Source of the DNA: a virus
IMG/VR virus record: IMGVR_UViG_3300023087_000103
Coordinates: 1 to 23,658 of that record
Reading direction: 5' to 3' (one strand)
Length of the DNA: 23,658 bases
Positions within the stretch are counted from its first letter, which is position 1, and the number at the start of each line of letters is the position of its first letter. Made by a program: the position numbers and the translations under genes. Positions 9,163-23,658 of this stretch are shown here, in pieces. The notes below the pieces were generated by a model. That model worked only from the letters and a program-made list of their open reading frames with translations, made no database searches and had not been told where the DNA came from.

Positions 9163-9498
9163 ATGAGACCATTATGCAAGTGCGGACAACGTCCGGCCGC
9201 TATAAATTATAAAAAAGGAGATAGAATCTATTATAGAAGTCTATGCGAATCTTGCCTGCGTAACGGTTTAGGTCACGGTATTCCTAAATGGAAGCAAAAG
9301 GGTTATACAAAATTAGATACTTGCGAAAAGTGTGGTTTTAAAAGTAAACACACTGAACAGTTTAATGTGTTTCACATTGATGGAAATTTAGAAAATTGTC
9401 GCCCTACAAACTTAAAAACTATTTGTGCTAACTGTCAGCGTATTCTGCAAAAAGAGGGAGTTGTGTGGAAACAGGGAGACTTAGTCCCCGATTTCTAA
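9163..9498 (+). CDS. Small HNH-type zinc-binding protein
   Basis: The 111-aa protein is built around four Cys pairs (C5/C7, C28/C31, C54/C57, C88/C91). The last two pairs frame an HNH-like core: FHIDGN (70-75) and NLKTIC (83-88). This is a treble-clef zinc fold as in HNH endonucleases; the N-terminal pairs form a second zinc knuckle. Stand-alone proteins with this layout are common in marine T4-like phages, some as homing or packaging-associated nucleases; activity here is not shown. It is the only plus-strand gene in this part of the window, is transcribed divergently from gp18, and its last 71 bases overlap the 3' end of the opposing kinase gene. There is no Shine-Dalgarno; the ATG follows the TAAATA box by 4 bases. 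Confidence 0.82.
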   Translation: MRPLCKCGQRPAAINYKKGDRIYYRSLCESCLRNGLGHGIPKWKQKGYTKLDTCEKCGFKSKHTEQFNVFHIDGNLENCRPTNLKTICANCQRILQKEGVVWKQGDLVPDF

Positions 9499-9988
9499 AA
9501 ATAGTACGTATAAGTGTGTCTACATTTTTTTGCAATCTATCTAAATCGCCATTGTTGTCAATAGTGTAATCACACATCCATTGTTCGATGCTCATTGACT
9601 TAGGATCTTCCTTAGGCAAATGATCTGTGCGATCTACCCAAATAGCATAGTCAAAGATTTCTTCGTTTTGCATAGCAAAGAATTCACGTTTATTACGCAG
9701 TCCACAGTATATTTGATTCTGGGCAAACAAGTTGCGTCCAAGGCGTGCCAAATCATCTTTACAGTAGTCATGAATCATATTGTACCACAACTCTCGATGA
9801 TTGTGTCGATCTGCGTAACATTCTTCTTCGTTAGCATAACCATGCTTGTCTTTTAGATCGTTGAATATAAACAGTTCTGAACAGAACTTAGAACTTGATT
9901 GAAATGTATATCCGTACTTCTCTAACATTTCACAAACGGTATCTTTGCCATGACGACCATGACCAACAATTAATAACTTAGGTAACAT
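9428..9988 (-). CDS. Deoxynucleoside monophosphate kinase-like P-loop enzyme
   Basis: The protein (186 aa) starts with a beta strand and P-loop (LLIVGHGRHGKDT, 5-17). This variant, with KDT in place of KST/KTT, is typical of phage dNMP kinases of the T4 gp1 type, which supply dNDPs for genome synthesis. A DYAIWVDRTDHLP segment (about 112-124) fits the second core strand and lid region. T4 gp1 is longer (241 aa), so this is a compact form; other adenylate-kinase-like folds are possible. It has an AGAGGAAA ribosome site and, unlike the virion genes around it, a consensus sigma70 promoter. Its 3' end overlaps the HNH gene. Confidence 0.78.
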   Translation of the reverse strand: MLPKLLIVGHGRHGKDTVCEMLEKYGYTFQSSSKFCSELFIFNDLKDKHGYANEEECYADRHNHRELWYNMIHDYCKDDLARLGRNLFAQNQIYCGLRNKREFFAMQNEEIFDYAIWVDRTDHLPKEDPKSMSIEQWMCDYTIDNNGDLDRLQKNVDTLIRTIFRNRGLSLPVSTQLPLFAEYADS

Positions 9989-9998
9989 GTATTTCCTC

Positions 9999-10019
9999 TA
10001 TAATATAAGTTATATTATA
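9999..10019. repeat. Perfect 21-bp palindrome over the kinase promoter start region
   Basis: TATAATATAA-G-TTATATTATA. It covers the -10 box and the expected transcription start of the promoter at 10014-10042 and the stop codon of the 80-aa gene. It could act as an operator, or simply give the -10 sequence on both strands. Confidence 0.6.
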
Positions 10020-10252
10020 ATAGGATTTGGTCCCTTTGTCAAGTTCTTTTTTGCGTTTTCTGCTTGCCGTTGTGCCCAGGCTGCTTCAAACCCTAACTCA
10101 GCATATTGAGCTCTTTCGTGATTGCCCCATAGTCTACGAAAATATGATTCATACGTAGACATGATATCTTTATCACTCCAGCTTTCGGGAATAAGTTGAC
10201 CTTTGACCATCCAGTAAAAACGATTTGCTTCTTTTTCTTGAAAGTATGTCAT
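10010..10252 (-). CDS. Hypothetical protein, 80 aa
   Basis: A small, mixed-charge, probably helical protein rich in aromatic residues (NRFYWMVKGQLIPESW near the start). No family recognised, no membrane segment or signal. The ATG lies inside a 20-bp palindrome that also contains a TGTAAATA box, with 4 bases from box to ATG and no Shine-Dalgarno. The consensus sigma70 promoter of the downstream kinase gene is embedded in its 3' end (-35 at 10037-10042). It is a plausible real gene because its start shares the control string of the terminase and HNH genes. Confidence 0.65.
   Translation of the reverse strand: MTYFQEKEANRFYWMVKGQLIPESWSDKDIMSTYESYFRRLWGNHERAQYAELGFEAAWAQRQAENAKKNLTKGPNPIII
10014..10042 (-). 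promoter_or_regulatory. Consensus sigma70 promoter for the deoxynucleotide kinase gene
   Basis: On the minus strand TTGACA (10037-10042), a 17-base spacer, and TATAAT (10014-10019): a full match to the bacterial housekeeping consensus at both hexamers. The expected start is near 10007, about 19 bases before the kinase ATG. Confidence 0.85.
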
Positions 10253-12700: not shown

Positions 12701-14154
12701 TGCAACATTTTTACGACGGACAAATTAGAAGATACTTAACACAACTCATAAGAATGTTTAGTAGTTTTTCTTATAAAAACGGAAAGAATCAATTAACGCA
12801 AATACCAGTAATGTACGGTGATATTACTCGTCAAGTAGGGTCAATATTACGAGATAATTCAGAAAACAAAATTCCAAGTGCTCCTCGTATGGGAGTTTAT
12901 GTTACCGGTTTAGAAATGGACCGAACAAGAACTTCAGATTCAAGTTATGTACATAAAGTGAATATTAGAGAGCGTTCTTACGATAGTACTAATCAAGAAT
13001 ATTTAAATACAGAAGGCAAAAATTACACAGTTGAAAGAATAATGCCTACACCATATACACTTACAGTTAATGTAGATATTTGGTCAACTAACACAGATCA
13101 AAAGTTACAAATTATGGAACAACTTTTAACTTTATTTAATCCCAGTTTAGAATTACAAACTACTGATAATTATTTAGATTGGACCAGTTTAAGTGTAGTA
13201 AATTTAGAATCAATTAGTTGGAGTTCCAGAAGTATTCCAGTTGGAACAGAAACTGAAATTGATGTAGGAACATTAACATTTACTACACCAATTTATATAT
13301 CACCACCGGCAAAAGTTAAACGATTAGGTGTTGTTACTGATATTGTAACTAAAGTATTTGAGAATGTTAACGAACTTGCTTCACAAGAAGATAGCATAGA
13401 TGAATTAGATTCTAAGGCAAATATTAGAACAGGAATATATGTTTCACCTACTGGAGAAATTGAAAGAACTCGAACAAGTAAGGATTGGCAAGATAGTTTA
13501 AATCAGCTAAATGTACAAGCAGGTACATATCAAAGTTTAGAGTTACTTGTTATTGGTAATAGCGGAAAATTAGTTAAAAGAGGAGTTACCGGAGGTAAAA
13601 CTTGGCCAGAATTTATAAAAGCATTTCCATTTAATTTCGAGCCAGGTGTAACAGCTATTAGACTACAAAGATCTGATTGGGACTATGATATCATAGGAAG
13701 AATAGCAATTAATCCAACAGACGAAACTGAAGTAATAATAGATTGGGACGATGATACATTACCTACTGATACTGTAATTTCTTCATCATTAGGTGATAGA
13801 AGTAAAATTGATTATATTATTGACCCAACTAAGTCTAATCCTCAAGAGTTAGGATTATCAGGAAATCCTCGTATATTATTGTTAAGCGACATTGGAAATA
13901 TTAAAAACGAAGACGGTGCCGATGCTTGGAAAAATTTAGACGGCACAGATTTTATAGCCAGTGCAAACGACATTGTAGAATGGGACGGCTCAAGATGGAA
14001 TATTATTTTTAATTCTAACGAAGACGTTAGCATTTACGGCACAATATATACAACTAATCTAAACACAGGTGTTCAATACAAATTTGACTCAGGCGAGTGG
14101 ATATTAAGTTTTGAAGGCGAATATCCAGATGGTGCCTGGAAGATGGAATTCTAA
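12700..14154 (+). CDS. gp15: Tail sheath stabiliser/completion protein gp15, long form
   Basis: T4 gp15 caps the tail and joins it to the head. The N-terminal half fits: HFYDGQIRRYLTQLIRMFSS (3-22), IPVMYGD (34-40), a YTLTVNVDIW strand and IMEQLLTLFNPSLEL helix (about 140-154), and TFTTPIYISPPAKVKR ending the core near 210. Beyond this is a roughly 270-residue extension absent in T4 (272 aa total) with DGSRWN and KFDSGEW motifs near the end, as I recall in cyanophage gp15. It follows gp14 with a one-base overlap. The extension is a likely surface decoration of the neck. Confidence rests on the N-terminal half and on the gp14 neighbour. Confidence 0.83.
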   Translation: MQHFYDGQIRRYLTQLIRMFSSFSYKNGKNQLTQIPVMYGDITRQVGSILRDNSENKIPSAPRMGVYVTGLEMDRTRTSDSSYVHKVNIRERSYDSTNQEYLNTEGKNYTVERIMPTPYTLTVNVDIWSTNTDQKLQIMEQLLTLFNPSLELQTTDNYLDWTSLSVVNLESISWSSRSIPVGTETEIDVGTLTFTTPIYISPPAKVKRLGVVTDIVTKVFENVNELASQEDSIDELDSKANIRTGIYVSPTGEIERTRTSKDWQDSLNQLNVQAGTYQSLELLVIGNSGKLVKRGVTGGKTWPEFIKAFPFNFEPGVTAIRLQRSDWDYDIIGRIAINPTDETEVIIDWDDDTLPTDTVISSSLGDRSKIDYIIDPTKSNPQELGLSGNPRILLLSDIGNIKNEDGADAWKNLDGTDFIASANDIVEWDGSRWNIIFNSNEDVSIYGTIYTTNLNTGVQYKFDSGEWILSFEGEYPDGAWKMEF

Positions 14155-14167
14155 GCTAACTATTTGT

Positions 14168-14602
14168 ATGAGCAATATAATTTGTAGTGGAGCTTTAATC
14201 TATAACCTTGACACTAATCGTTTTTTATTTTTACATAGAGCAAATAGTAAAAATAAACAAGTATGGGGTCTTGTAGGCGGAACTAATGAAGGAGAAGAAA
14301 CTCCTTGGGAAGGCCTAAAACGTGAAATCTTTGAAGAGATTGGCGAAATAGATATAAAGAAAACTATTCCTTTAGAAACATTTGTATCTAACGATACTAA
14401 ATTTTTATTTCATACATATCTATGTATTGTTTCTAAAGAATTCATACCAACCTTAAATAAAGAGCATGATGGATATGCTTGGGTTTCTTTTGGTCATTGG
14501 CCAAAGCCTTTACATTTTGGATTACAAAATACTTTAAACAAAAAAGTAAATCTTTCTAAATTAAAAACTGTGTTTGATGTTATAGATTTACTTGACAATT
14601 AG
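14168..14602 (+). CDS. NUDIX hydrolase
   Basis: NUDIX enzymes hydrolyse nucleoside diphosphates linked to another moiety. The 144-aa protein has the box G-x5-E-x7-RE-I-x-EE-x-G (near residues 38-60 from this start; REIFEEIGE visible), with E where the final hydrophobic residue usually stands. The start at 14168 gives MSNIICSGALIYN, a normal NUDIX first strand; an in-frame ATG at 14111 would lie inside gp15. The substrate cannot be told: candidates include oxidised nucleotides, ADP-sugars or GDP-mannose. The WVSFGHWPKPLHFGL segment recalls GDP-mannose hydrolase-like NUDIX proteins (weak). It lies between gp15 and the ADP-heptose genes, so action on an ADP-sugar pool is an open possibility. Confidence 0.88.
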   Translation: MSNIICSGALIYNLDTNRFLFLHRANSKNKQVWGLVGGTNEGEETPWEGLKREIFEEIGEIDIKKTIPLETFVSNDTKFLFHTYLCIVSKEFIPTLNKEHDGYAWVSFGHWPKPLHFGLQNTLNKKVNLSKLKTVFDVIDLLDN

Positions 14603-14620
14603 AAAGTTTGAGTGTACAAT
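14592..14620 (+). promoter_or_regulatory. Sigma70-type promoter for the heptose operon
   Basis: TTGACA (14592-14597), a 17-base spacer, and TACAAT (14615-14620), one base off the -10 consensus. The expected start is 6-8 bases later, at or near the A of the hldE ATG (14627), which lacks a Shine-Dalgarno; a leaderless mRNA is likely. The promoter overlaps the end of the NUDIX gene. Confidence 0.8.
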
Positions 14621-14626
14621 AATATT

Positions 14627-15766
14627 ATGAAAGTCTTAGTTATTGGTGATGTAATCACAGACAAATATATTTATGGTACATCTTCTCGTATTAGCCCCGA
14701 AGCGCCAGTTCCAGTTGTAAACTTATTAGACATTAAAGTTTTACAAGGCGGAGCCGGACTTGTACATCAAAATTTAAGAAATTTAGGAGTAGATGTAAAA
14801 CTACTAAATTTATCTAATCCACAATGCACTAAAATACGTGTAATTTGTGACGGGCATTATATTACAAGAATTGATGAAGATTACGTTACTGACGGTCAAG
14901 AAGCTCTTAAGTCTATATTAGAAAAAGACTTTAGCGAGTACGAATATGTAATCTTAAGTGACTACAACAAAGGTGTATTAGAATATTCAAACGATATTAT
15001 TGCACATCTTAATAGTTTTAATTGTAAGGTTATTGTAGACCCTAAGAGACACGTTAGTTGTTATGACGGTGCATGGTTAGTAAAACCCAATGGTAAGGAA
15101 TATAACGAATTAGGATTTAATAGTTGGGGCGGAAATATTATTACTACAAGTGCAAGTAACCCTGTTATTGCTAAAATAGATGATAATAATTACAATATTC
15201 AAGTTGAAGCCGAAGAAGTTAGCGATGTTACAGGAGCAGGTGATTGTTTCTTAGCCGCGTTTGTATACGGATTGGTTAATAATTATAATTATGAAAAATG
15301 TTTAAAAATTGCTGTTAAAGGCTCAACAGAATCAGTAAAACATACTGGCACATACATACTTAGTGAAAACGATCTGCAAAATAAAATAGTTTTTACTAAT
15401 GGTTGTTTTGATATACTACACACAGGACACCTTACATTGCTTAAAGAAGCCCGTAGCTTAGGTAATAAATTAATTGTAGGTCTAAACAGCGATGACAGTG
15501 TAAAACGCTTAAAAGGGCGTAATAGACCCGTTAACAGCGTTAATATAAGAAAGGAACAACTTGAACTTATTCCGTATGTAGACGAAGTTATTGTGTTTGA
15601 CAGCGACACACCTTACGAGCTTATTAAAGAACTAAAGCCAGACTTAATTGTCAAAGGTGGCGATTATACTGTAGAAGAAATTGTAGGACATGACTTAGCA
15701 CCTGTGCATATTGTTCCTACAGTTGAAGGATACAGTACAACAAAGATATTAGAGACTAACAAATGA
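14627..15766 (+). CDS. hldE: Bifunctional heptose-7-phosphate kinase / heptose-1-phosphate adenylyltransferase
   Basis: HldE makes two steps of ADP-heptose synthesis: phosphorylation at C1 of heptose-7-phosphate, and adenylylation of heptose-1-phosphate. The N-terminal PfkB kinase domain (1-245) has GDVITDKYIYG (7-17), the GGAG glycine pair (41-44) and the catalytic DVTGAGDCF (200-208). The C-terminal nucleotidyltransferase (about 254-379) has FTNGCFDILHTGHLTLLKEA (256-275, HxGH), SDDSVKRLKG (288-297), RPVN and VKGGDY (342-347). The second domain is very close to E. coli HldE. At 379 aa the enzyme is shorter than E. coli (477), nearly all from the kinase half. The ATG at 14627 is chosen over the GTG at 14612, which overlaps the promoter. 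It overlaps hldD by 4 bases. Confidence 0.94.
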   Translation: MKVLVIGDVITDKYIYGTSSRISPEAPVPVVNLLDIKVLQGGAGLVHQNLRNLGVDVKLLNLSNPQCTKIRVICDGHYITRIDEDYVTDGQEALKSILEKDFSEYEYVILSDYNKGVLEYSNDIIAHLNSFNCKVIVDPKRHVSCYDGAWLVKPNGKEYNELGFNSWGGNIITTSASNPVIAKIDDNNYNIQVEAEEVSDVTGAGDCFLAAFVYGLVNNYNYEKCLKIAVKGSTESVKHTGTYILSENDLQNKIVFTNGCFDILHTGHLTLLKEARSLGNKLIVGLNSDDSVKRLKGRNRPVNSVNIRKEQLELIPYVDEVIVFDSDTPYELIKELKPDLIVKGGDYTVEEIVGHDLAPVHIVPTVEGYSTTKILETNK

Positions 15767-16572
15767 AAATTTTAATTACAGGACATAAAGGATTTATTGG
15801 TCAAAATTTAACTTTTTATCTTCAAAACGATCACGAGTTATTTGGCTATGAGTGGCAAGAAGAACATTTGCCAGAAGTTGAAGGGTTTGATTGGGTAATA
15901 CATGTTGGCGCTATTTCAAGCACAACAGAACAAGATGTTGATAAAGTTATTTTACAAAACTATGAATTTAGTAAATGGTTATACAACCAATGTAATATCA
16001 AAGGCGTAAATTTTCAATATGCATCAAGTGCAAGCGTATATGGCCCATATGAAAAATTTAACGAAAACGATCCTAAACAGCCACAGTCTCCTTATGCATG
16101 GAGTAAGTATCTATTTGACAGATGGGTGTGGCAACAAAATCATAAAATTATTGTACAAGGATTTAGATATTTTAATGTGTATGGACCGTTAGAAGATCAC
16201 AAAGGAGATCAAGCAAGTCCGGTAACTAAGTTTACAAAGCAAGCAACCGAAAATGGCTCAATTAATATATTTGAAGGCAGCGACAAATATCTTCGAGATT
16301 TTGTATTTGTAGGCGATGTATGCGAAGCACATAAACAACTATTAGATAATAAAAAATCAGACATATATAACATTGGAACTGGAAAGCCAGTTAGTTTTCA
16401 AACAGTTGCAGAAATTATTTCAGAAAAATATAATGCAGAAATAAAATACATACCTATGCCTGAAAATTTAAAAAACCAATATCAAGAATATACTTGTGCA
16501 GACATATCTAAATTAAGTAATGTAGTAGATATTAATTTTGCAACAGTAGAGGAGTATGTAAAAAATGGCTGA
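15763..16572 (+). CDS. hldD: ADP-L-glycero-D-manno-heptose 6-epimerase
   Basis: HldD converts ADP-D,D-heptose to the L,D form used in LPS core. The 269-aa short-chain reductase has the Rossmann loop TGHKGFIG (6-13), the family's ISSTTE (51-56), YASSASVYG (86-94), catalytic Y111xxxK115 (SPYAWSKYLFD), FRYFNVYGP (134-142) and HKGDQAS (146-152), where K147 aligns with the second catalytic lysine of E. coli HldD. FEGSDKYLRDFVFVGDV (170-186) is also diagnostic. It is about 40 aa shorter than E. coli. It overlaps hldE (ATGA) and the cupin gene (8 bases), so the operon is tightly coupled. Confidence in the exact activity, rather than another sugar epimerase, comes from these diagnostic segments. Confidence 0.93.
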   Translation: MKILITGHKGFIGQNLTFYLQNDHELFGYEWQEEHLPEVEGFDWVIHVGAISSTTEQDVDKVILQNYEFSKWLYNQCNIKGVNFQYASSASVYGPYEKFNENDPKQPQSPYAWSKYLFDRWVWQQNHKIIVQGFRYFNVYGPLEDHKGDQASPVTKFTKQATENGSINIFEGSDKYLRDFVFVGDVCEAHKQLLDNKKSDIYNIGTGKPVSFQTVAEIISEKYNAEIKYIPMPENLKNQYQEYTCADISKLSNVVDINFATVEEYVKNG

Positions 16573-16960
16573 TGTAAAAAGACTAAGCGGTGTTGTTCAA
16601 AAAGGCTGGGGTTATGAAATGATTTGGGCCACAAATGAAATGTATTGTGGTAAAATTATGGTCTTTAACAGAGAAGGTGCTAAAACAAGTATGCACTTTC
16701 ATAAAGAAAAAGACGAGACTTGGTTTGTAAATAATGGAAGATTTAAAGTTGCATACATTGATACAAAGAATAGTATGCTATACGAAAAAGAACTTAAAGA
16801 AGGCGAAGTTTGGCGCAATCCTCCGCTACAGCCACATCAATTAATTTGTTTGTCTAAAGAAGGAAGTGTAACAGAAGTTAGTACACCAGATAGCGTTGAA
16901 GATAATTATAGAATTGGTCCAGGCGACAGTCAAAGGTTAGAAGATGCCGCAGAAGATTGA
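16565..16960 (+). CDS. Cupin, sugar-phosphate isomerase/epimerase-like
   Basis: A single-domain cupin of 131 aa with the two metal-binding motifs: H44-x-H46-x4-E51 (SMHFHKEKDETW) and H91 (LQPHQLIC). It ends with EVSTPD and YRIGPGDSQR, as in the cupin part of type II mannose-6-phosphate isomerase/guanylyltransferases. Stand-alone relatives occur in LPS and nucleotide-sugar loci as isomerases, epimerases or binding proteins. The substrate here is unknown; a role in sedoheptulose or heptose supply, replacing gmhA, is a guess with no family evidence. It overlaps hldD by 8 bases and the oxygenase gene by 17 bases. Confidence 0.8.
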   Translation: MADVKRLSGVVQKGWGYEMIWATNEMYCGKIMVFNREGAKTSMHFHKEKDETWFVNNGRFKVAYIDTKNSMLYEKELKEGEVWRNPPLQPHQLICLSKEGSVTEVSTPDSVEDNYRIGPGDSQRLEDAAED

Positions 16961-17561
16961 ATTTAAAGATTACTTTCCTGTTGCAGTATTACACTATAAG
17001 ATTGATGACGACATGGCCAATGCTGTATGCTCTGCTGTGGAGCCAGAATTAAGTAAACTACAAAGAACTACGCCAATAGTTGATTATGGTGGCGATCCTT
17101 ACACGTCTGTTGATACACATGCTACAGATTTTTGGGATAATAAAATTCAAATACACACGTTAGTTCCAGACTTTTTTGAAGAAGTTAGAAATGCAGTTTT
17201 GCTTTATCAAGAGCATACAAGCATTATGATTAACCCTAACTTTAAAATACGTTATTGGACTCAAGATTATTCAGACGGCGATTCGCACGATATTCATAAT
17301 CATGGAATACATGGCATTAGTGGAACATATTATATGAGAGCTAATAGTGCGGCTGGACCTATAAGATTTTATAATCCTAATCAAGTAGCCGGACTTGTTA
17401 AACATATGATGTCAGGAAATCCATATTGTGCAGATACTATGGACGTTTACCCAGAAAAAGGCACAATGTTAATTTTTCCATCATATCTTAAACATAAAGT
17501 TGTTGAATGTAACGAAGGCGCAATTCGTACATCTATTTCTTTTGATATTTGCCCGGGGTAA
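16944..17561 (+). CDS. 2-oxoglutarate/Fe(II) oxygenase, first copy
   Basis: The protein (205 aa) fits the 'putative 2OG-Fe(II) oxygenase' family common in marine T4-like phages. DIHNHGIHGISGTYYM (116-131) supplies two candidate metal ligands (H118, H120) as in the H-x-H-P-x-SGvyY motif; YPEKGTMLIFPSYLKHKV (169-186) supplies the distal H184; and IRTSISFDI (194-202) supplies R195 for 2-oxoglutarate. Such enzymes hydroxylate amino acids, nucleobases or sugars; the substrate is unknown. Its place between the cupin and gmhB suggests tailoring of the heptose product or of a sugar-carrying protein. It overlaps the cupin gene by 17 bases. Confidence 0.85.
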   Translation: MPQKIEFKDYFPVAVLHYKIDDDMANAVCSAVEPELSKLQRTTPIVDYGGDPYTSVDTHATDFWDNKIQIHTLVPDFFEEVRNAVLLYQEHTSIMINPNFKIRYWTQDYSDGDSHDIHNHGIHGISGTYYMRANSAAGPIRFYNPNQVAGLVKHMMSGNPYCADTMDVYPEKGTMLIFPSYLKHKVVECNEGAIRTSISFDICPG

Positions 17562-17564
17562 TAA

Positions 17565-18200
17565 ATGTATAACATAAATTGGAGTAATCAGAAAAAACCT
17601 CAACCCGAAAAAATACCGTTCTATGATCATAAAAATGTAGCACCTAAAGTAGTTGTTGGTTTAGATCGAGACGGCGTTATTAATGTTGATAGAGGTACCT
17701 ATACATATCGTCCTGAAGATTTTGAACCAATTCCTGGAAGTCTTGAGGCAGTTGCTAAAATTAGACAACTTGGTCACAAGATCGCAATTATTACAAATCA
17801 AGCAGGCATTGGTAAGGGATTATATACACCCGAAGATGTAGATAAAACACACGACTATATGTTTAAATTATTAGGTGAAGCTGGCTGTGCAAGTATTGAT
17901 GCAATTTATTATAGCGAAACAAATTTAAGAAATGATATATTTGCAAAACCTAATACAGGAATGTTTAAAAAATGTGAAGAAGAAAATCCTTATATTAAAT
18001 TTAAGAAAGGATTCTTTGTTGGTGATAAAATTTCTGATTTAAAAGCCGCACATAGGATAGGTGCAAAACCTATTCTTGTAAGAACAGGTCACGGGGAAGA
18101 AACTATTAAAGAACTTAATAAATTTAGTAATAGAGATCTTAAAAAACGAGTATCTATATTTAATGATTTAAAAGAGTTTGCTAATTGGCTTGATCGATAG
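17565..18200 (+). CDS. gmhB: D-glycero-D-manno-heptose-1,7-bisphosphate phosphatase-like HAD enzyme
   Basis: GmhB removes the C7 phosphate between the two HldE reactions. The 211-aa HAD protein shows motif I DRDGVIN (34-40), the TNQAGIGKG loop (77-85), K128 in AKPNTGM (127-133) and GDKISDLKAA (153-162), the order and spacing of GmhB. An N-terminal extension of about 28 residues is added. The Cys/His zinc loop of E. coli GmhB (before the KP-GM motif) is absent: here the stretch reads YYSETNLRNDIFAKP. Histidinol-phosphate phosphatase and other D,D-heptose-1,7-bisphosphatase-like HADs share the fold, so the call leans on hldE and hldD in the same operon. Its end overlaps the opposing oxygenase gene by 20 bases. 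Confidence 0.85.
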   Translation: MYNINWSNQKKPQPEKIPFYDHKNVAPKVVVGLDRDGVINVDRGTYTYRPEDFEPIPGSLEAVAKIRQLGHKIAIITNQAGIGKGLYTPEDVDKTHDYMFKLLGEAGCASIDAIYYSETNLRNDIFAKPNTGMFKKCEEENPYIKFKKGFFVGDKISDLKAAHRIGAKPILVRTGHGEETIKELNKFSNRDLKKRVSIFNDLKEFANWLDR

Positions 18201-18783
18201 ATTCTATACCAAAATTTGCACTTACTGAATATCTTATTTCGTCAGATTTATTATATGTAACAAAATGATCTAATGTACTTGGAAAGAATATAATCTCTCC
18301 TTCTTCTAAATTAGTATCAAAAGATTTTCCAAATTGATTTGTATTAAAAAGTAAGTTTGTTTCTGCTGGAAATGGTTCATACGAACTATTATAAAATATA
18401 AACTTACTTTCAGAATCTTTTGGAACGTGCAACGAATAAGCACAACTAAAAACATTCTTATCACCAGTATGACAATGTACGTCTTGATGTTGTCCTTTAG
18501 AATACCCGTTAGCCCAGGCAGATCCGCCAATAGTTGCTAAATCTGTCTTAAAAGAAATAGATTCTAAATAAGAATGTAAAATAGGGTGTATACTTGTAAA
18601 AAATAAATCCCAATTAATATTAATATCTGTTCTTCCGTGTGTAGTATAACAGTCGCAATACCAATCATCGCTCGGACTAAGAATATTATCTTGTTTTAAT
18701 TGAGATAAAAGATCTTCTTTTATCTCATTATGGTTAGGAATTTTTGTTTTATAAATTGGAATTCCAAAAATACTAAATGTCAT
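18181..18783 (-). CDS. 2-oxoglutarate/Fe(II) oxygenase-like protein, second copy
   Basis: A 200-aa protein with FGIPIYKTKIP at the start, typical of marine phage 2OG oxygenases. AWANGYSKGQHQDVHCHTG (89-107) offers H99-x-D101 and H103/H105; EGEIIFFPSTLDHFVTYN (161-178) supplies the distal H173; R184 in IRYSVSANF would bind 2-oxoglutarate. It differs clearly from the first copy and is not a recent duplicate. Its start overlaps the carbamoyltransferase stop by 11 bases, so it is the last gene of the leftward GT9, carbamoyltransferase and oxygenase unit. Substrate unknown; a carbamoylated sugar or the acceptor protein is a contextual guess. Confidence 0.8.
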   Translation of the reverse strand: MTFSIFGIPIYKTKIPNHNEIKEDLLSQLKQDNILSPSDDWYCDCYTTHGRTDININWDLFFTSIHPILHSYLESISFKTDLATIGGSAWANGYSKGQHQDVHCHTGDKNVFSCAYSLHVPKDSESKFIFYNSSYEPFPAETNLLFNTNQFGKSFDTNLEEGEIIFFPSTLDHFVTYNKSDEIRYSVSANFGIESIDQAN

Positions 18784-20572
18784 TTTTAATCTTAATCATC
18801 TTTTTAAATTCTGGTAAAAATAAGTATTCTATATCACTTTTCTTTAAAGTCCACATTGCATCATATAATGTTTCAACTAATGGATCGCCTCCCAAATTAA
18901 ATGATGTATTGAATACAATTGGAACACCTGTCTTTTCTTTAAATGCTTTAATAATATTGTAATAATGAGGATTTTGTTCTTTATTAACAGTTTGAATACG
19001 ACAAGTTCCGTCTACGTGAATAATAGCAGGAATCTTTTCTTCAATGCCTGGCTGACAGTTTACAGCATACATCATTGTAGGTGAACTTTTCATACCACGC
19101 AAATCAAACCATTCGTGTACATCTTCTTCTAAGATACTACCTGCAAACGGACGGAAATATTCTCGACGCTTAACAGTATTAACAAAATCTTTGCCATTAG
19201 GATCAGTTGGATCATAAAGAATACTTCTATTGCCTAAAGCTCTTGGACCGTTCTCAGATCTTCCTTGATATACTGTAACAATATTTCTGTCTGTGATTAA
19301 ATCTACAAGATCTTTATAATCTGCATCAGTAACTTCGGCATTAAATTGATCTGCAATTTGTTCTACATCTTCAGTTGTGTAATTGTAAGTAGGACCGTAA
19401 TAAACAGTATCGACTTGTTTATTAATTGTCATATCTTTTGTTATAGTACGATAAGCCCATAATGCGGCGCCTATTGCTGTTCCGCCGTCATTAGACACCG
19501 GTTCGACATATAAATTAATACCTTCGTCTTTTAATTGCTCTAAATACCAATAGTTAGCAACACAATTTAATCCGTATCCTCCAGAAACAACTACATTGTT
19601 ACATCCAGTCATTTCAACTGCTTTCCTAATAACATCTAATGATGCTTGTTGAGTTTGAGTTTGAATAGCATATGCCATGTCACGTCTATTTTGACTTTTA
19701 GTACAATCTTCTCTGTCAGGTTCTTCTCGTAAAACACTGCTAATCATTTCGTTAACAATTGAACCATTGGGATATTTTGGAATAAACAAGTTACGATTAG
19801 TTAACGGAGTTGGCCAATCAATATTTTCATCAAAGACTTTTGGGATCATATTGTTTTCTTTACCGTATGGAAATAATCCCATAGTCTTTCCAGCTTCAAT
19901 TGCGTCCCAGCCGCAGTATTCTGTTACTGCTTCATATGCTTTAACAATGCCTGCTCTATCTGAGCATGATACTTGATACATTCCAGTATCATTACCAAAA
20001 ATATCAGTGTCTTTGTTTTCGTTTATAAATGTAGGTAGATAATCTCTACAACCCATTGTTTTATATAAAGTTTGAATTTGGTCTGGATATGAACATTTAT
20101 AGATAGTTTCAGTTTCCCACATATATCTTGGAGAATCTTCATAATCCATAGGAAAACATGTGCCAGCGCCATCAATAATAACTGCTGTTGCTTCTTCAAA
20201 TCCAGAATTATAAAATGCAAGTGCGGCATGCATTTTATGATGTAGTTTTGCAGTATCAATTATTTGAGGGTGTGCATCAAGTGGATGTCCTTTTTCAATT
20301 AGTCCAAGTTTCCTTGCAAATCCTGTAATATAATCTTCATTTGTATAGTCAATACGACCAGCAGTATCGCTAAGTGTTTGTGTATGTGATACAACCAAAT
20401 AATCTAATTTATTTGTATATTCTAAAATTTTTAAAATAGATGCTAATGGTCCTCCATCATATTTGGTTCTTGTGAGTCTTTCTTCTTCCATAGCAAATAC
20501 AATTTCGCCATCTTTAAGTAAACACACACCAGCATTATGACCTCGAGCTACGCCTGCAATCCATTGACTCAT
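18773..20572 (-). CDS. NodU/CmcH-type O-carbamoyltransferase
   Basis: These enzymes move a carbamoyl group from carbamoyl phosphate, through carbamoyl-adenylate, onto a hydroxyl, often of a sugar. The 599-aa protein has both halves. The N-terminal Kae1-like domain shows GHNAGVCLLKDG (11-22), EEERLTR (29-35), the metal-site LHHKMHAA (110-117), VIIDGAG (131-137), VVSGGYGLNCVAN (328-340) and PVSNDGGTAIGAALW (358-372). The C-terminal domain shows YQGRSENGPRALGNRS (435-450), REYFRPFAGSI (470-480), HVDGTCRIQTV (519-529) and VFNTSFNLGGDP (553-564). I chose the ATG at 20572 because AGGAGG lies 8 bases upstream and it begins one base after the GT9 stop. The neighbour context suggests it modifies the transferred sugar. 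Confidence 0.92.
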   Translation of the reverse strand: MSQWIAGVARGHNAGVCLLKDGEIVFAMEEERLTRTKYDGGPLASILKILEYTNKLDYLVVSHTQTLSDTAGRIDYTNEDYITGFARKLGLIEKGHPLDAHPQIIDTAKLHHKMHAALAFYNSGFEEATAVIIDGAGTCFPMDYEDSPRYMWETETIYKCSYPDQIQTLYKTMGCRDYLPTFINENKDTDIFGNDTGMYQVSCSDRAGIVKAYEAVTEYCGWDAIEAGKTMGLFPYGKENNMIPKVFDENIDWPTPLTNRNLFIPKYPNGSIVNEMISSVLREEPDREDCTKSQNRRDMAYAIQTQTQQASLDVIRKAVEMTGCNNVVVSGGYGLNCVANYWYLEQLKDEGINLYVEPVSNDGGTAIGAALWAYRTITKDMTINKQVDTVYYGPTYNYTTEDVEQIADQFNAEVTDADYKDLVDLITDRNIVTVYQGRSENGPRALGNRSILYDPTDPNGKDFVNTVKRREYFRPFAGSILEEDVHEWFDLRGMKSSPTMMYAVNCQPGIEEKIPAIIHVDGTCRIQTVNKEQNPHYYNIIKAFKEKTGVPIVFNTSFNLGGDPLVETLYDAMWTLKKSDIEYLFLPEFKKMIKIKNDI

Positions 20573-20573
20573 A

Positions 20574-21581
20574 TTAATGTCCTCCTGTATGGGAACAAGT
20601 TGAATTATTATCAAATTGATTCTGTGTTGGTTGTTGTGGTGCTGAACGCTCACTTTTACCTACACGTTTTTTAATAGAATTAACTATACTATCAATTTGT
20701 TCTTGTGTCAAGTCCATTGCTTTATCATTTAATCTGTCAGGTTCTTCTTCCATTGATACTCTAATAGGACTATATACACGTCTTCCTTCGCCAACATCAA
20801 AGATTTCAATATCTTTGTCATTTACGTATGATGTGTTAATTGGATATGTACTACCAGTAATAACTGTAGCAGTGGTGCCAAGTGATTTAGCAATATGTTG
20901 TCCTACACTGTCACATCCTAAGAAGTGATCTGCGGCATCAATTACTCCTCCCCAAATTCTAATATCTGGAATTTCTGGTTGTGCGAGAGGAGCTTCGTTA
21001 GGATCTTCATTATACATGTTAAGCGGCAATTCGCTCATTATAATAATTCCGTATTCTTTTTTAAGTTCGTTAGCGATTGCTAACATATCTTCTACGCGAA
21101 AACTTCTCGATGTTTGATCTATTAATGTTTGTTCAACTCCTCTGCCAAAAGGTTGAATTACAATTACTTTACTTAAACCAGTAACTGCTTTAACTTCGTC
21201 AACAACACTTTTACCGTGTAACTTTTCTGATTTATTAAGATATATTTGGGGAATATGTAAATCTCTAATACCTTTTTTATTAATTTCAATATCAAAGGCT
21301 TGTGCAATACTGCATTTTTGATTATAATACTCCCAAATACGATATGGTTCTGGACTTACACAAGTTCTATCTTTAATAAAGTTTTCAAATAATCCTTTGT
21401 GCCAAACGTCATATGCACGTTTATGCAATGTAGGATGTCCTTTATAGAAATCAGTTCCTCCTTCACAGACAATAATAAAATCATCCTCAGGATTTTCTTT
21501 TTCAAAAAGTTCAAGTGCGGGAATTGATGTTATAACACGGCCGGCGCCGCCGTTAATAAAAAATGCTGTTGATCTTGACAT
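20574..21581 (-). CDS. GT9/heptosyltransferase-like glycosyltransferase
   Basis: The protein (335 aa) has the two-part layout of glycosyltransferase family 9, the LPS ADP-heptosyltransferase family. At the start, GGAGRVITSIPALELF (11-26) matches the G-D-x-(L/V)-x-T-x-P-(A/L)-L segment. A linker leads to the second Rossmann domain with VIVIQPFGRG (139-148). DAADHFLGCDSVGQHIAKSLG (215-235) corresponds to the donor-binding DTG-x-x-H-x-A-x-A motif, here DSVGQHIA. The last 25 residues are Gln/Asn/Ser-rich and probably disordered. The next genes (1 base away) are the carbamoyltransferase and an oxygenase. ADP-heptose as donor is inferred from hldE/hldD nearby; related GT9-like proteins also act on proteins. 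AAGGATAG lies upstream, inside an inverted repeat. Confidence 0.78.
   Translation of the reverse strand: MSRSTAFFINGGAGRVITSIPALELFEKENPEDDFIIVCEGGTDFYKGHPTLHKRAYDVWHKGLFENFIKDRTCVSPEPYRIWEYYNQKCSIAQAFDIEINKKGIRDLHIPQIYLNKSEKLHGKSVVDEVKAVTGLSKVIVIQPFGRGVEQTLIDQTSRSFRVEDMLAIANELKKEYGIIIMSELPLNMYNEDPNEAPLAQPEIPDIRIWGGVIDAADHFLGCDSVGQHIAKSLGTTATVITGSTYPINTSYVNDKDIEIFDVGEGRRVYSPIRVSMEEEPDRLNDKAMDLTQEQIDSIVNSIKKRVGKSERSAPQQPTQNQFDNNSTCSHTGGH
20581..20586 (-). promoter_or_regulatory. Shine-Dalgarno that fixes the carbamoyltransferase start
   Basis: AGGAGG on the minus strand, 8 bases before the ATG at 20572, inside the 3' end of the GT9 gene. It excludes the upstream in-frame start at 20653. Confidence 0.9.
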
Positions 21582-21651: not shown

Positions 21652-22491
21652 CTATTCAGGAATGTCGTCGCTTTGTCTTATAAATCCGGTATCAAGACCG
21701 TAATCAGTATCTATTTCTTTACATTCTGGCCAGCAACTGTCAACATACAATAAATCTATATCTGCAAGGGCAGTTGGCATATTTCTTAAAAGTTCTTTAT
21801 ACTCTTCAATTTTTTCTGCTACTGCTGGATCATGCTCTTTCATTGCAAGGTGCATTGCATCAACATCTTGCAGTCTTTCAGTTCTTTCCATTCTAATATC
21901 ATTCCAAGACTGCGGTTGACCTAATGTATCTATAGATGATCTTTTATAAAGTTCAACTTCTCCAGTTTCAAAATTGTATGTAGTTAGTTTGTCATCATAC
22001 AAATGATCTGGATGAATAGGGTATTCATATTCAAAGAAACCATAACCCGGAATAACAGGTGACGGAATAGTTTTTCTTCCTGGAGTTTCTAACCAGTCGT
22101 CAAAATCTTTATAATTATCATGGTAGTCAGAGAGTACTTCGGCTTCTAATGGATTTTTTGTTGCATCAAGTTTTACAAGTTCAATTTCGCCAGGAATATC
22201 TAAAAAATCGTTAGTTTGTTCTCTTGCTTCTTGTTCTCTCAATACAGTTTCAAACTTTCCTCTTTCTTCTGGAGTATCTTCACCTTTATTAACATAAAGA
22301 TACAAGTATTTAGGACCTATATATCTTCCATTTACTGTTTCAGTTGCAGGTCCATCTAAATAGTTTTCTGAAGGACATTCGTACGTGTAATCAACTTCTA
22401 CCCATTCAGTACCTAATTCGTCAGTATCTGTTAATGTGCGATAATCGACTACAGTACTTTCAAGTTCATCGTTGTTTAAGTTTTCAGCCAT
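21652..22491 (-). CDS. Tail assembly chaperone-like protein, 279 aa
   Basis: The last third (about 197-255) follows the plan of phage tail fibre assembly chaperones: WNDIRMERTERLQDVD, then an acidic helix, IEEYKELLRNMPTALADID (227-245) and a WP pair (SCWPE), like the R-xx-R-xx-LL ... YR-xx-LRD-P ... WP pattern. The first two thirds are acidic, aromatic and of unknown fold, with several YEYPIHPDHLY-type segments. It lies directly after the Cys/Gly-rich protein (4 bases) and before the GT9 unit; fibre chaperones commonly follow the fibre gene they serve. A GGAG site overlaps the previous gene's end. The function is inferred from this partial pattern and its location. Confidence 0.65.
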   Translation of the reverse strand: MAENLNNDELESTVVDYRTLTDTDELGTEWVEVDYTYECPSENYLDGPATETVNGRYIGPKYLYLYVNKGEDTPEERGKFETVLREQEAREQTNDFLDIPGEIELVKLDATKNPLEAEVLSDYHDNYKDFDDWLETPGRKTIPSPVIPGYGFFEYEYPIHPDHLYDDKLTTYNFETGEVELYKRSSIDTLGQPQSWNDIRMERTERLQDVDAMHLAMKEHDPAVAEKIEEYKELLRNMPTALADIDLLYVDSCWPECKEIDTDYGLDTGFIRQSDDIPE

Positions 22492-22494
22492 TGA

Positions 22495-23358
22495 TTATCT
22501 CCAAGTAATCTTTACTAATCCCGGATGTCCAGGAGTTCCACGACAGTGACTTATATCTTGACCACAAGTTGCTTTAATTGCACTTGCTCCGCCTCTTGCA
22601 ATTTGTCGGAAACCTCTACAACAAGACATACATCCGCAATATTTGTTTTGTGTTTGTAGATTATATTCGTGTCTATTTTTTAATCCCCACGATTCTGAAA
22701 TACCACTTGCTCTGGTACCACAGTTAACGTTTGATCTAAATTGTGTAAAATATGGTTGGTTACCCATATCAATAAAGTCATATTTACAACCAATACATAG
22801 ACCTAAACCACACATTGACTCTTGTCTATTACCCTGGTTATTACACATGCATGTACAGTAAATATTATAACCGCCTTTACCGCCTGTTATACAAAAACAA
22901 CATAGTCCAGATCCTCTAATATGCGAAGAACAACCTCTTGGCTGATCACAACATACTGAAAAACATCCACAACCGTTATTTGTTGTACCGTTGCCGCCTG
23001 CTCCTACACAGAAACAATATACGCATCCTGGGTTAAACTGCCCGTCTGGTCTTCGTAACGTTTTTCTACCATAATATCCTGAAAATGCACCGCAACTGGC
23101 CATGTCGCACCAACAACCTTGACAACAGTGTCCTGCTCCAGAGCCGCCGCCACTCCATATTTCAAATGTTATTTCAGAAGCACATGTTGGTGCTGTCCAA
23201 GTGCCACAGCGACCGCAATGTGATCTACATCTATGAGGACCACAGCATACCATACAGGTATTAAAGCACTGAAACATTCCTCCAGGAACAGTACCCTGCG
23301 TTCTTTGGCATGTACCGTCTGGAAATCTTATTCCATCACTATATAAACAAGTTGCCAT
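22495..23358 (-). CDS. Cys/Gly-rich putative tail-tip adhesin, 287 aa
   Basis: The composition is extraordinary: 39 Cys in 287 residues and many Gly. The start (SDGIRFPDGTCQRTQG, 7-22) has the 'I-x-F-x-DGT-x-Q' motif of phage fibre proteins. Then GTWTAPTCASEITFEIWSGG (52-71) and CVGAGGNGT (about 117-125) follow the plan of a glycine-rich fibre domain (W-x-x-P ... V-W-GGGG ... VGAGG), with Cys pairs and CxC motifs inserted throughout (CC, CFC, CTCMC, CGC). The end returns to an ordinary strand (PGLVKITWR). It lies between a fibre S74 end and a tail-chaperone-like gene, so host adhesion is likely. Cys may bind metal or form disulphides after lysis; neither can be told from sequence. Confidence 0.82.
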   Translation of the reverse strand: MATCLYSDGIRFPDGTCQRTQGTVPGGMFQCFNTCMVCCGPHRCRSHCGRCGTWTAPTCASEITFEIWSGGGSGAGHCCQGCWCDMASCGAFSGYYGRKTLRRPDGQFNPGCVYCFCVGAGGNGTTNNGCGCFSVCCDQPRGCSSHIRGSGLCCFCITGGKGGYNIYCTCMCNNQGNRQESMCGLGLCIGCKYDFIDMGNQPYFTQFRSNVNCGTRASGISESWGLKNRHEYNLQTQNKYCGCMSCCRGFRQIARGGASAIKATCGQDISHCRGTPGHPGLVKITWR

Positions 23359-23658
23359 TTATGCATCTCCTTTTAATTTATTTATTTCTTCTTTTAATTC
23401 TTTAATTGCCTCTACAAGTAATGGTACTACTCTTTCGTATTGTAGTGTTTTGTAATCTTCGCCTGAAATACTATTATCGTCTTCATCTCTATCAAATGGA
23501 GCATTGTGAATAATTTCAGGAAGTACTGCTTCAACTTCTTGTGCAATCAAACCTACTTCAGTTTTTTCTTTATCAAAACCTTCTGGTGTGTTTTCATTCC
23601 AATTATATGTTACACCATTAAGTAACATAACTTTATCTAATGCATTTGGAATGTTTTC
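23359..23658 (-). CDS. Tail fibre C-terminus with S74 intramolecular chaperone (cut by window end)
   Basis: The reading frame is open to the window edge; 99 codons are visible. The sequence from NALDKVMLLNGVTYNWNE through VGLIAQEVEAVLPEI, then LQYERVVPLLVEAIKEL and a short charged coiled coil, is a standard Peptidase S74 domain, the self-cleaving chaperone that trimerises fibres and endosialidases. The upstream fibre body is outside the window. Its stop directly abuts the ATG of the Cys/Gly-rich gene (TAAATG), so the two are translated as a unit; AAGGAG lies inside its last codons. The internal ATG at 23628 is not the true start because S74 residues continue upstream of it. Confidence 0.92.
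   Translation of the reverse strand, partial: ENIPNALDKVMLLNGVTYNWNENTPEGFDKEKTEVGLIAQEVEAVLPEIIHNAPFDRDEDDNSISGEDYKTLQYERVVPLLVEAIKELKEEINKLKGDA

Follow-up and report, generated by a model that had tools for sequence, protein, structure and literature searches.

On which molecule would a phage that carries genes for ADP-heptose synthesis beside its tail-fibre genes place the sugar? The question is raised by IMG/VR virus record IMGVR_UViG_3300023087_000103, whose positions 1 to 23,658 were analysed as a whole (hereafter the window), a 23.7-kb piece of a T4-like marine myovirus. A first-pass annotation, made from the sequence alone, had described an island for heptose synthesis and transfer, with host lipopolysaccharide (LPS) or a virion adhesin as candidate acceptors; the genomic evidence presented here favours the virion fibre protein over LPS. 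We put at roughly 0.5 the probability that the phage encodes, in this island, a means of modifying the fibre tip of its own virion, by heptosylation and then carbamoylation. We infer a donor, an acceptor, an order of steps and a purpose: phage enzymes would make ADP-heptose from host heptose-7-phosphate, a glycosyltransferase (GT) of GT9 fold would put heptose on a neighbouring cysteine- and glycine-rich (Cys/Gly-rich) fibre protein, an O-carbamoyltransferase (CT) would carbamoylate the transferred sugar, and 2-oxoglutarate (2OG) oxygenases might add further marks by hydroxylation, as might a flavin halogenase in other loci; the modified fibre tip could serve receptor binding, stability or shielding. 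More tentatively, we suggest that this is a widespread marine-phage system, which builds ADP-heptose and in which a GT9 enzyme exclusive to viruses, its active site being non-canonical, heptosylates a cysteine-rich tail-fibre adhesin that is then carbamoylated (and, in relatives, halogenated and hydroxylated), the receptor-binding tip being a multiply modified glycoprotein.

Judged from gene order, the GT–CT pair is locked to the Cys/Gly-rich, tail-fibre-like protein, and the linkage is obligate. A GT scan of viral contigs recovered 436 relatives, the best 80 of which were taken for locus counts; these loci rank highest by score, and some are near-duplicates (84 GTs comprised 59 distinct ones). 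The Cys/Gly-rich protein was encoded upstream of the GT and on the same strand in all 55 loci where 4.5 kb or more of upstream sequence was available, often as three tandem copies followed by a chaperone-like gene, and a CT lay on the GT's strand in all 73 loci that extend 4.5 kb or more in the downstream direction. A reverse scan started from the Cys/Gly-rich protein and nothing else. Once contigs already in the GT set were removed, 36 loci had 5 kb or more of sequence downstream, and GT and CT were present in 36/36; inverted GT/CT arrangements occurred among the fibre-scan loci (L107, L129). Against phages, tblastn with the fibre protein as query found no match, probably owing to low-complexity filtering, and an alignment-based search was used in its place, with a profile built from the GT loci. 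Across 13 complete cyanophage genomes, this profile detected the protein in the four with a GT (P-SSM2, S-CAM1, S-CAM3 and S-SSM7) and in none of the nine without (Fisher p=0.0014, phylogeny not corrected); S-SM1 and Syn9 are phages that lack it. Heptose genes were present in three of these nine (P-TIM68, S-T4 and S-SM2) and a carbamoyltransferase in two (P-RSM4 and S-CAM8); because cyanophages lacking both GT and fibre protein thus hold heptose genes or a CT, it is the fibre protein that the GT tracks, not the heptose genes or the CT. In the window, the genes are arranged as follows.

14612..15766 (likely ATG 14627), plus strand: hldE-like, fused heptose-7-phosphate kinase and heptose-1-phosphate adenylyltransferase (PRK11316 E=4.8e-85, TIGR02199 E=9.7e-48)
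15763..16572, plus strand: hldD-like ADP-heptose 6-epimerase (TIGR02197 E=9.4e-73; best PDB match 1eq2, E=2.3e-48)
16565..16960, plus strand: small cupin, phrog_7851 (cassette shared with cyanophages, T4-GC307)
16944..17561, plus strand: 2OG-Fe(II) oxygenase (PF13759 E=2.1e-17)
17565..18200, plus strand: GmhB-like HAD phosphatase without the Zn-binding Cys loop (PRK08942 E=1.2e-39)
18181..18783, minus strand: second 2OG-Fe(II) oxygenase (PF13759 E=7.8e-12)
18773..20575, minus strand: NodU/TobZ-type O-carbamoyltransferase, starting at ATG with MSQWIAG (PF16861 E=1.2e-58, PF02543 E=4.2e-27; PDB 7xb6 and TobZ 3ven)
20574..21581, minus strand: GT9-fold glycosyltransferase, phrog_8954, probable heptosyltransferase (AlphaFold and Foldseek)
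21652..22491, minus strand: tail assembly-chaperone-like protein between fibre protein and GT (PF16778, Phage_tail_APC, E=8.4e-5, under the gathering score; synteny)
22495..23358, minus strand: Cys/Gly-rich tail-fibre-like protein, phrog_4205, proposed acceptor (composition; Gly_rich_2 E=0.003; Foldseek)
23359..23628, minus strand: C-terminal part of a tail-fibre gene with an intramolecular chaperone-like end (many tail-fibre PHROGs, best E=5.8e-23)

The plus-strand genes (hldE, hldD, cupin, 2OG oxygenase, gmhB-like) overlap their neighbours by 4-17 nt or sit 3 nt apart, for which the earlier label of a tight operon is apt, and they converge tail to tail at 18,181-18,200 with the minus-strand set, which runs from the fibre end through the Cys/Gly-rich protein, chaperone-like protein, GT and CT to the second 2OG oxygenase. 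Every gene that the first-pass annotation had named, both in the plus-strand operon and in the GT9-like, O-carbamoyltransferase and 2OG oxygenase genes facing it, was found where it had been placed; the cupin and one of the two oxygenases had gone unlisted. Dozens of related contigs, as well as isolated cyanophages, have this gene set, which is therefore no chance grouping.

The HldE and HldD active sites, whose degeneracy would have told against the annotation, are intact by comparison with their relatives. HldE is a 384-aa fusion of kinase and adenylyltransferase, the kinase part being shortened to about 250 aa, and its Asp211 (PfkB GAGD), His270/His273 (HxGH) and STT 375-377 are kept in 24/24 distinct relatives. 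HldD residues Tyr111/Lys115/Lys147 align with Tyr140/Lys144/Lys178 of Escherichia coli HldD (1eq2) and are conserved in 32/32, 32/32 and 31/32 sequences, respectively. The catalytic roles of these HldE and HldD residues are established knowledge. Both proteins score below their NCBIfam equivalog cut-offs, HldE at 285.9 bits (cut-off 521) and HldD just short at 245.1 bits (cut-off 274.6), in part because both are shortened; the GmhB-like match to PRK08942 likewise falls under the curated equivalog cut-off, and the HAD DxD motif of this protein is largely kept (D34 in 41/47 and D36 in 44/47 relatives). Profile searches therefore recovered the annotated identities of these three proteins at scores below equivalog level, and left the annotated GT nearly invisible. 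Among relatives, HldE occurs in two forms, fused in the window clade and split with reversed domain order in cyanophages and others.

The GT had no match in Pfam and reached 15.6 bits (E=0.006) against TIGR02201 in NCBIfam, where the cut-off is 170. A profile search against PDB sequences gave no relevant match, so that fold comparison was needed. With an AlphaFold model built from 32 related sequences (predicted local distance difference test score, pLDDT, 83), the 24 best PDB matches in Foldseek were all GT9 enzymes (E 2e-9 to 1e-6; template-modelling score 0.46-0.62), including 3tov, TibC (4rap/4rb4), WaaC (2gt1/2h1h) and WaaF (1psw). The predicted structure thus confirms a GT-B fold of GT9 type, in agreement with the first-pass family assignment. 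A C-terminal D-S-x-G-x-H signature is invariant in 104/104 distinct relatives, as are numerous further polar residues; Glu40, Asp97 and Asp155 are among the invariant acidic ones. Of the 20 GT-bearing records that reach 60 kb (not all independent), the same 17 gave strong matches to both HldE and HldD, so the grouping of these genes in the earlier annotation extends to relatives, and HldE was present in every GT-bearing cyanophage species found. Within about 10 kb of the GT, HldE occurred in 31/80 loci and HldD in 30/80. This co-occurrence indirectly points to ADP-heptose as the GT donor.

The CT active site, by the same kind of comparison, is intact, with both carbamoyltransferase domains (PF02543 and PF16861) over their cut-offs and the metal ligands His112/His116/Asp135 present in 102/102 relatives. 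Cyanophage carbamoyltransferases have been called pyrimidine-synthesis enzymes (PMC9146016, PMC10436341); we reject this role here, as the domains of the window protein and of those relatives linked to a GT are of NodU/TobZ type, not of aspartate carbamoyltransferase type. The GT-linked members of the cyanophage carbamoyltransferases in T4-GC303 are likewise NodU/TobZ-type O-carbamoyltransferases. Flavin-dependent 'tryptophan' halogenases occur in 37/80 GT loci (e.g. L022:13525-15036, L067:15133-16587 and SSSM7_125 of NC_015287), and VirX1 of cyanophage Syn10 (PMC8407142) is among the PDB relatives of these island halogenases. DUF6445 proteins were also seen in related islands (L022:15008-15727, L067:13471-14178). 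Because flavin halogenases act on aromatic rings, their presence, together with that of the DUF6445 proteins, suits a polypeptide target better than LPS sugars, and the natural substrate of viral halogenases may lie in or near the fibre protein. Other recurrent island proteins had no Pfam match and appeared SGNH-like by eye (L022:12842-13528, L022:16154-17038 and L067:16584-17447).

The proposed acceptor consists of 13.6% Cys and 16.8% Gly, and its gene is preceded by one with a tail-fibre C-terminus. In Foldseek, the first PDB matches of its model were the cyanophage Pam3 fibre and the Bxb1 tail tip, and the homologues neighbouring the GT in S-CAM3 and P-SSM2 ranked first in a viral library. 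A fibre-tip role is likely. Modification of the fibre is favoured partly because TibC, a protein heptosyltransferase, is among the best fold matches of the GT. Precedents for the two reactions exist separately, TibC heptosylating autotransporter adhesins (PMC4358343) and WapO, in Pseudomonas, being the enzyme presumed to carbamoylate a core heptose (PMC8005017).

A number of results weigh against fibre heptosylation. The catalytic Asp of GT9 enzymes, which we take to follow strand 1 in a GxGD motif (D13 in WaaC), is replaced by Arg15 in 104/104 distinct GT relatives, the positions being equated from the motif and the topology of the model rather than by superposition. The substitution is the chief weak point of the heptosyltransferase label and leaves the GT9–ADP-heptose pairing of the first-pass annotation weaker than it was stated: another residue may be the base, or the enzyme may work differently, and its donor or acceptor may differ. 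Bacterial autotransporter heptosyltransferases (BAHTs) have an N-terminal beta-barrel of ~97 residues, which is absent from the GT model (first strand at residues 5-9, then a helix at 13-29), and a four-Cys iron finger, also absent, as the 104 sequences share only one cysteine, Cys223, at a frequency of 93% or more (Cys39 and Cys90 are invariant only within the 32-sequence set). In TibC, the catalytic Asp is Asp110 (PMC4358343). The function proposed for the GT is BAHT-like, yet the GT is not a BAHT. No hldE or hldD was found within 10 kb of the GT in 49/80 islands, and 3/20 long GT records lacked a clear HldE and HldD, though IMG/VR records may be fragments. The model of the Cys/Gly-rich protein is only moderate (pLDDT 67). 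The Zn-binding C-x-H...C-x-C loop of GmhB was found in 0/47 relatives of the GmhB-like protein, for which the earlier identification holds at the level of likeness. The annotation had also anticipated a missing gmhA, and a profile search (TIGR00441) found none in 50 whole related records, including the complete P-SSM2, S-CAM3, S-SSM7 and P-TIM68, while control genomes matched. From these searches, the complete ADP-heptose pathway is not carried on the phage, and phage heptose must begin from host heptose-7-phosphate or some other source.

The possibility that gmhA lies elsewhere on the phage, including as T4-GC306, was rejected. The cyanophage 'phosphoheptose isomerase' of that cluster (PSSM2_311 of NC_006883 and relatives) is 106-114 aa long, has a HAD-like 'IDIDGTIC' start and contains no SIS domain. 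Its label is likely a misannotation spreading through cyanophage genomes, and published lists such as that in PMC7378029 may therefore overstate the pathway.

Modification of the receptor recognised by the fibre would also predict linkage to a fibre gene, a further point against fibre modification. In this main rival reading, the GT and CT would put carbamoylated heptose on host surface glycans, blocking rival phages or the re-adsorption of progeny to debris, and would travel with the fibre gene since fibre and receptor change must match. We consider this unlikely, although the LPS core of Pseudomonas classically contains heptose and carbamoylated heptose (PMC8005017), such genes have been read as LPS genes in cyanophage and pelagimyophage papers (PMC3037559, PMC7029224), prevention of coinfection has been proposed for pelagimyophage glycosyltransferases, and WaaC and WaaF are, like TibC, among the fold matches of the GT. 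The receptor reading loses ground because heptose and Kdo (3-deoxy-D-manno-oct-2-ulosonic acid) are absent from cyanobacterial LPS (PMC4390846), yet the module is kept by cyanophages. Moreover, heptose genes and CT were found without the fibre protein but the GT never was, and the recurring flavin halogenase genes are ill-suited to LPS sugars.

Alternatively, the GT could be a GT9-fold enzyme with another donor, or have a non-catalytic role, for instance by partnering the fibre as a lectin-like protein or chaperone, while the heptose genes serve other products. This is doubtful. The invariant Arg, the 49 loci without nearby heptose genes and the heptose genes of the GT-less P-TIM68, S-T4 and S-SM2 would all fit such a role, but the D-S-x-G-x-H signature and polar residues shared by all relatives do not, nor does the company that HldE and HldD keep with the GT in most long records and HldE in every GT-bearing cyanophage species found. 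That the island is passive filler, captured LPS genes parked without function as 'stuffer DNA' (PMC3037559), is very improbable, since hypervariable fibre regions in T4-like phages and a pathway left incomplete by the missing gmhA are set against intact active sites strongly conserved across divergent phages and a strict order of fibre, chaperone, GT and CT.

The heptose genes themselves are not new, being known as cyanophage 'LPS genes'. Sullivan et al. (PMC3037559) described cyanophage LPS gene clusters, including T4-GC 304, 305, 307 and 308, without deciding between a function and stuffer DNA, and pelagimyophage LPS genes including rfaE are also known (PMC7029224). The cyanomyovirus cluster (T4-GC 302-308 in P-SSM2 and S-SSM7; also S-CAM1 and S-CAM3) has the same GT (phrog_8954), CT, HldE domains, cupin and HldD beside tail-fibre genes. 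It differs from the window in its split HldE, in which the adenylyltransferase precedes the kinase, and in the small HAD-like T4-GC306 that takes the place of the GmhB-like HAD; the window phage, for its part, has a jumbo-type sheath. Fibre modification as proposed here resembles the BAHTs TibC and AAH in GT9 fold, in a gene beside an adhesin-like protein and in the proposed ADP-heptose donor, whereas the window GT lacks their beta-barrel, iron finger and catalytic Asp, and its candidate acceptor is a phage fibre protein instead of an autotransporter. With WaaC/WaaF and WapO-type carbamoylation of the Pseudomonas core, it shares fold, likely donor and carbamoyltransferase family, but the GT belongs to a viral family for which no clear cellular member turned up, is tied to a fibre gene and has its catalytic Asp replaced. 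Phage glycosyltransferases modify virion proteins in actinobacteriophages; compared with these, the window has other enzymes and another sugar, a dedicated ADP-heptose pathway and carbamoylation.

In the open-licence PMC literature, there seems to be no earlier account of the strict GT–CT–fibre coupling, of a GT9 assignment for this enzyme, of its Arg substitution, of the absence of gmhA or of the genes in relatives that are not cyanophages. Heptose genes of marine phages have been classed for more than 10 years as possible LPS genes or stuffer DNA, and their role in cyanophages was open because cyanobacterial LPS lacks heptose. Strict fibre coupling points to a concrete acceptor candidate, and it may be the setting in which viral flavin halogenases (VirX1-like) and phage carbamoyltransferases naturally act. 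If fibre modification is true, host recognition by ocean phages may hinge on post-translational sugar chemistry overlooked by genome annotation.

The left side of the window carries tail tube-like, sheath, head closure, neck and sheath-stabiliser genes, and the right side the tail-fibre end. The closest sheath relatives are in the jumbo phages Atu_ph07 (Agrobacterium), Phosso and PA5oct (Pseudomonas), and psbA was found in 0/46 related IMG/VR records as against 4/4 cyanophages. A cyanophage origin was rejected as unlikely on these two grounds, and the host is probably not a cyanobacterium. A NUDIX hydrolase gene at 14111-14602 (plus strand) adjoins a gp15-like gene; it was rejected as a member of the heptose pathway, since it occurs with gp15 in 27/32 NUDIX loci and without hldE in 9/32. 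A small Cys-containing open reading frame at 9163-9498 (plus strand), HNH-like by eye, lies on the strand opposite to the structural genes.

The GT family appears to be virus-only, a scan of 11.3 million genome contigs having returned six matches, all in marine metagenome-assembled genomes. These six contigs (L169-L174; up to 335 kb), assigned to Euryarchaeota, Actinomycetota, Neomarinimicrobiota and Flavobacteriales, are probably mis-binned phage genomes. A distant GT relative (27% identity) is encoded directly upstream of a tail protein gene in Vibrio phage D505 (L184, record positions 9478-10215) and may represent a second, diverged fibre-linked group.

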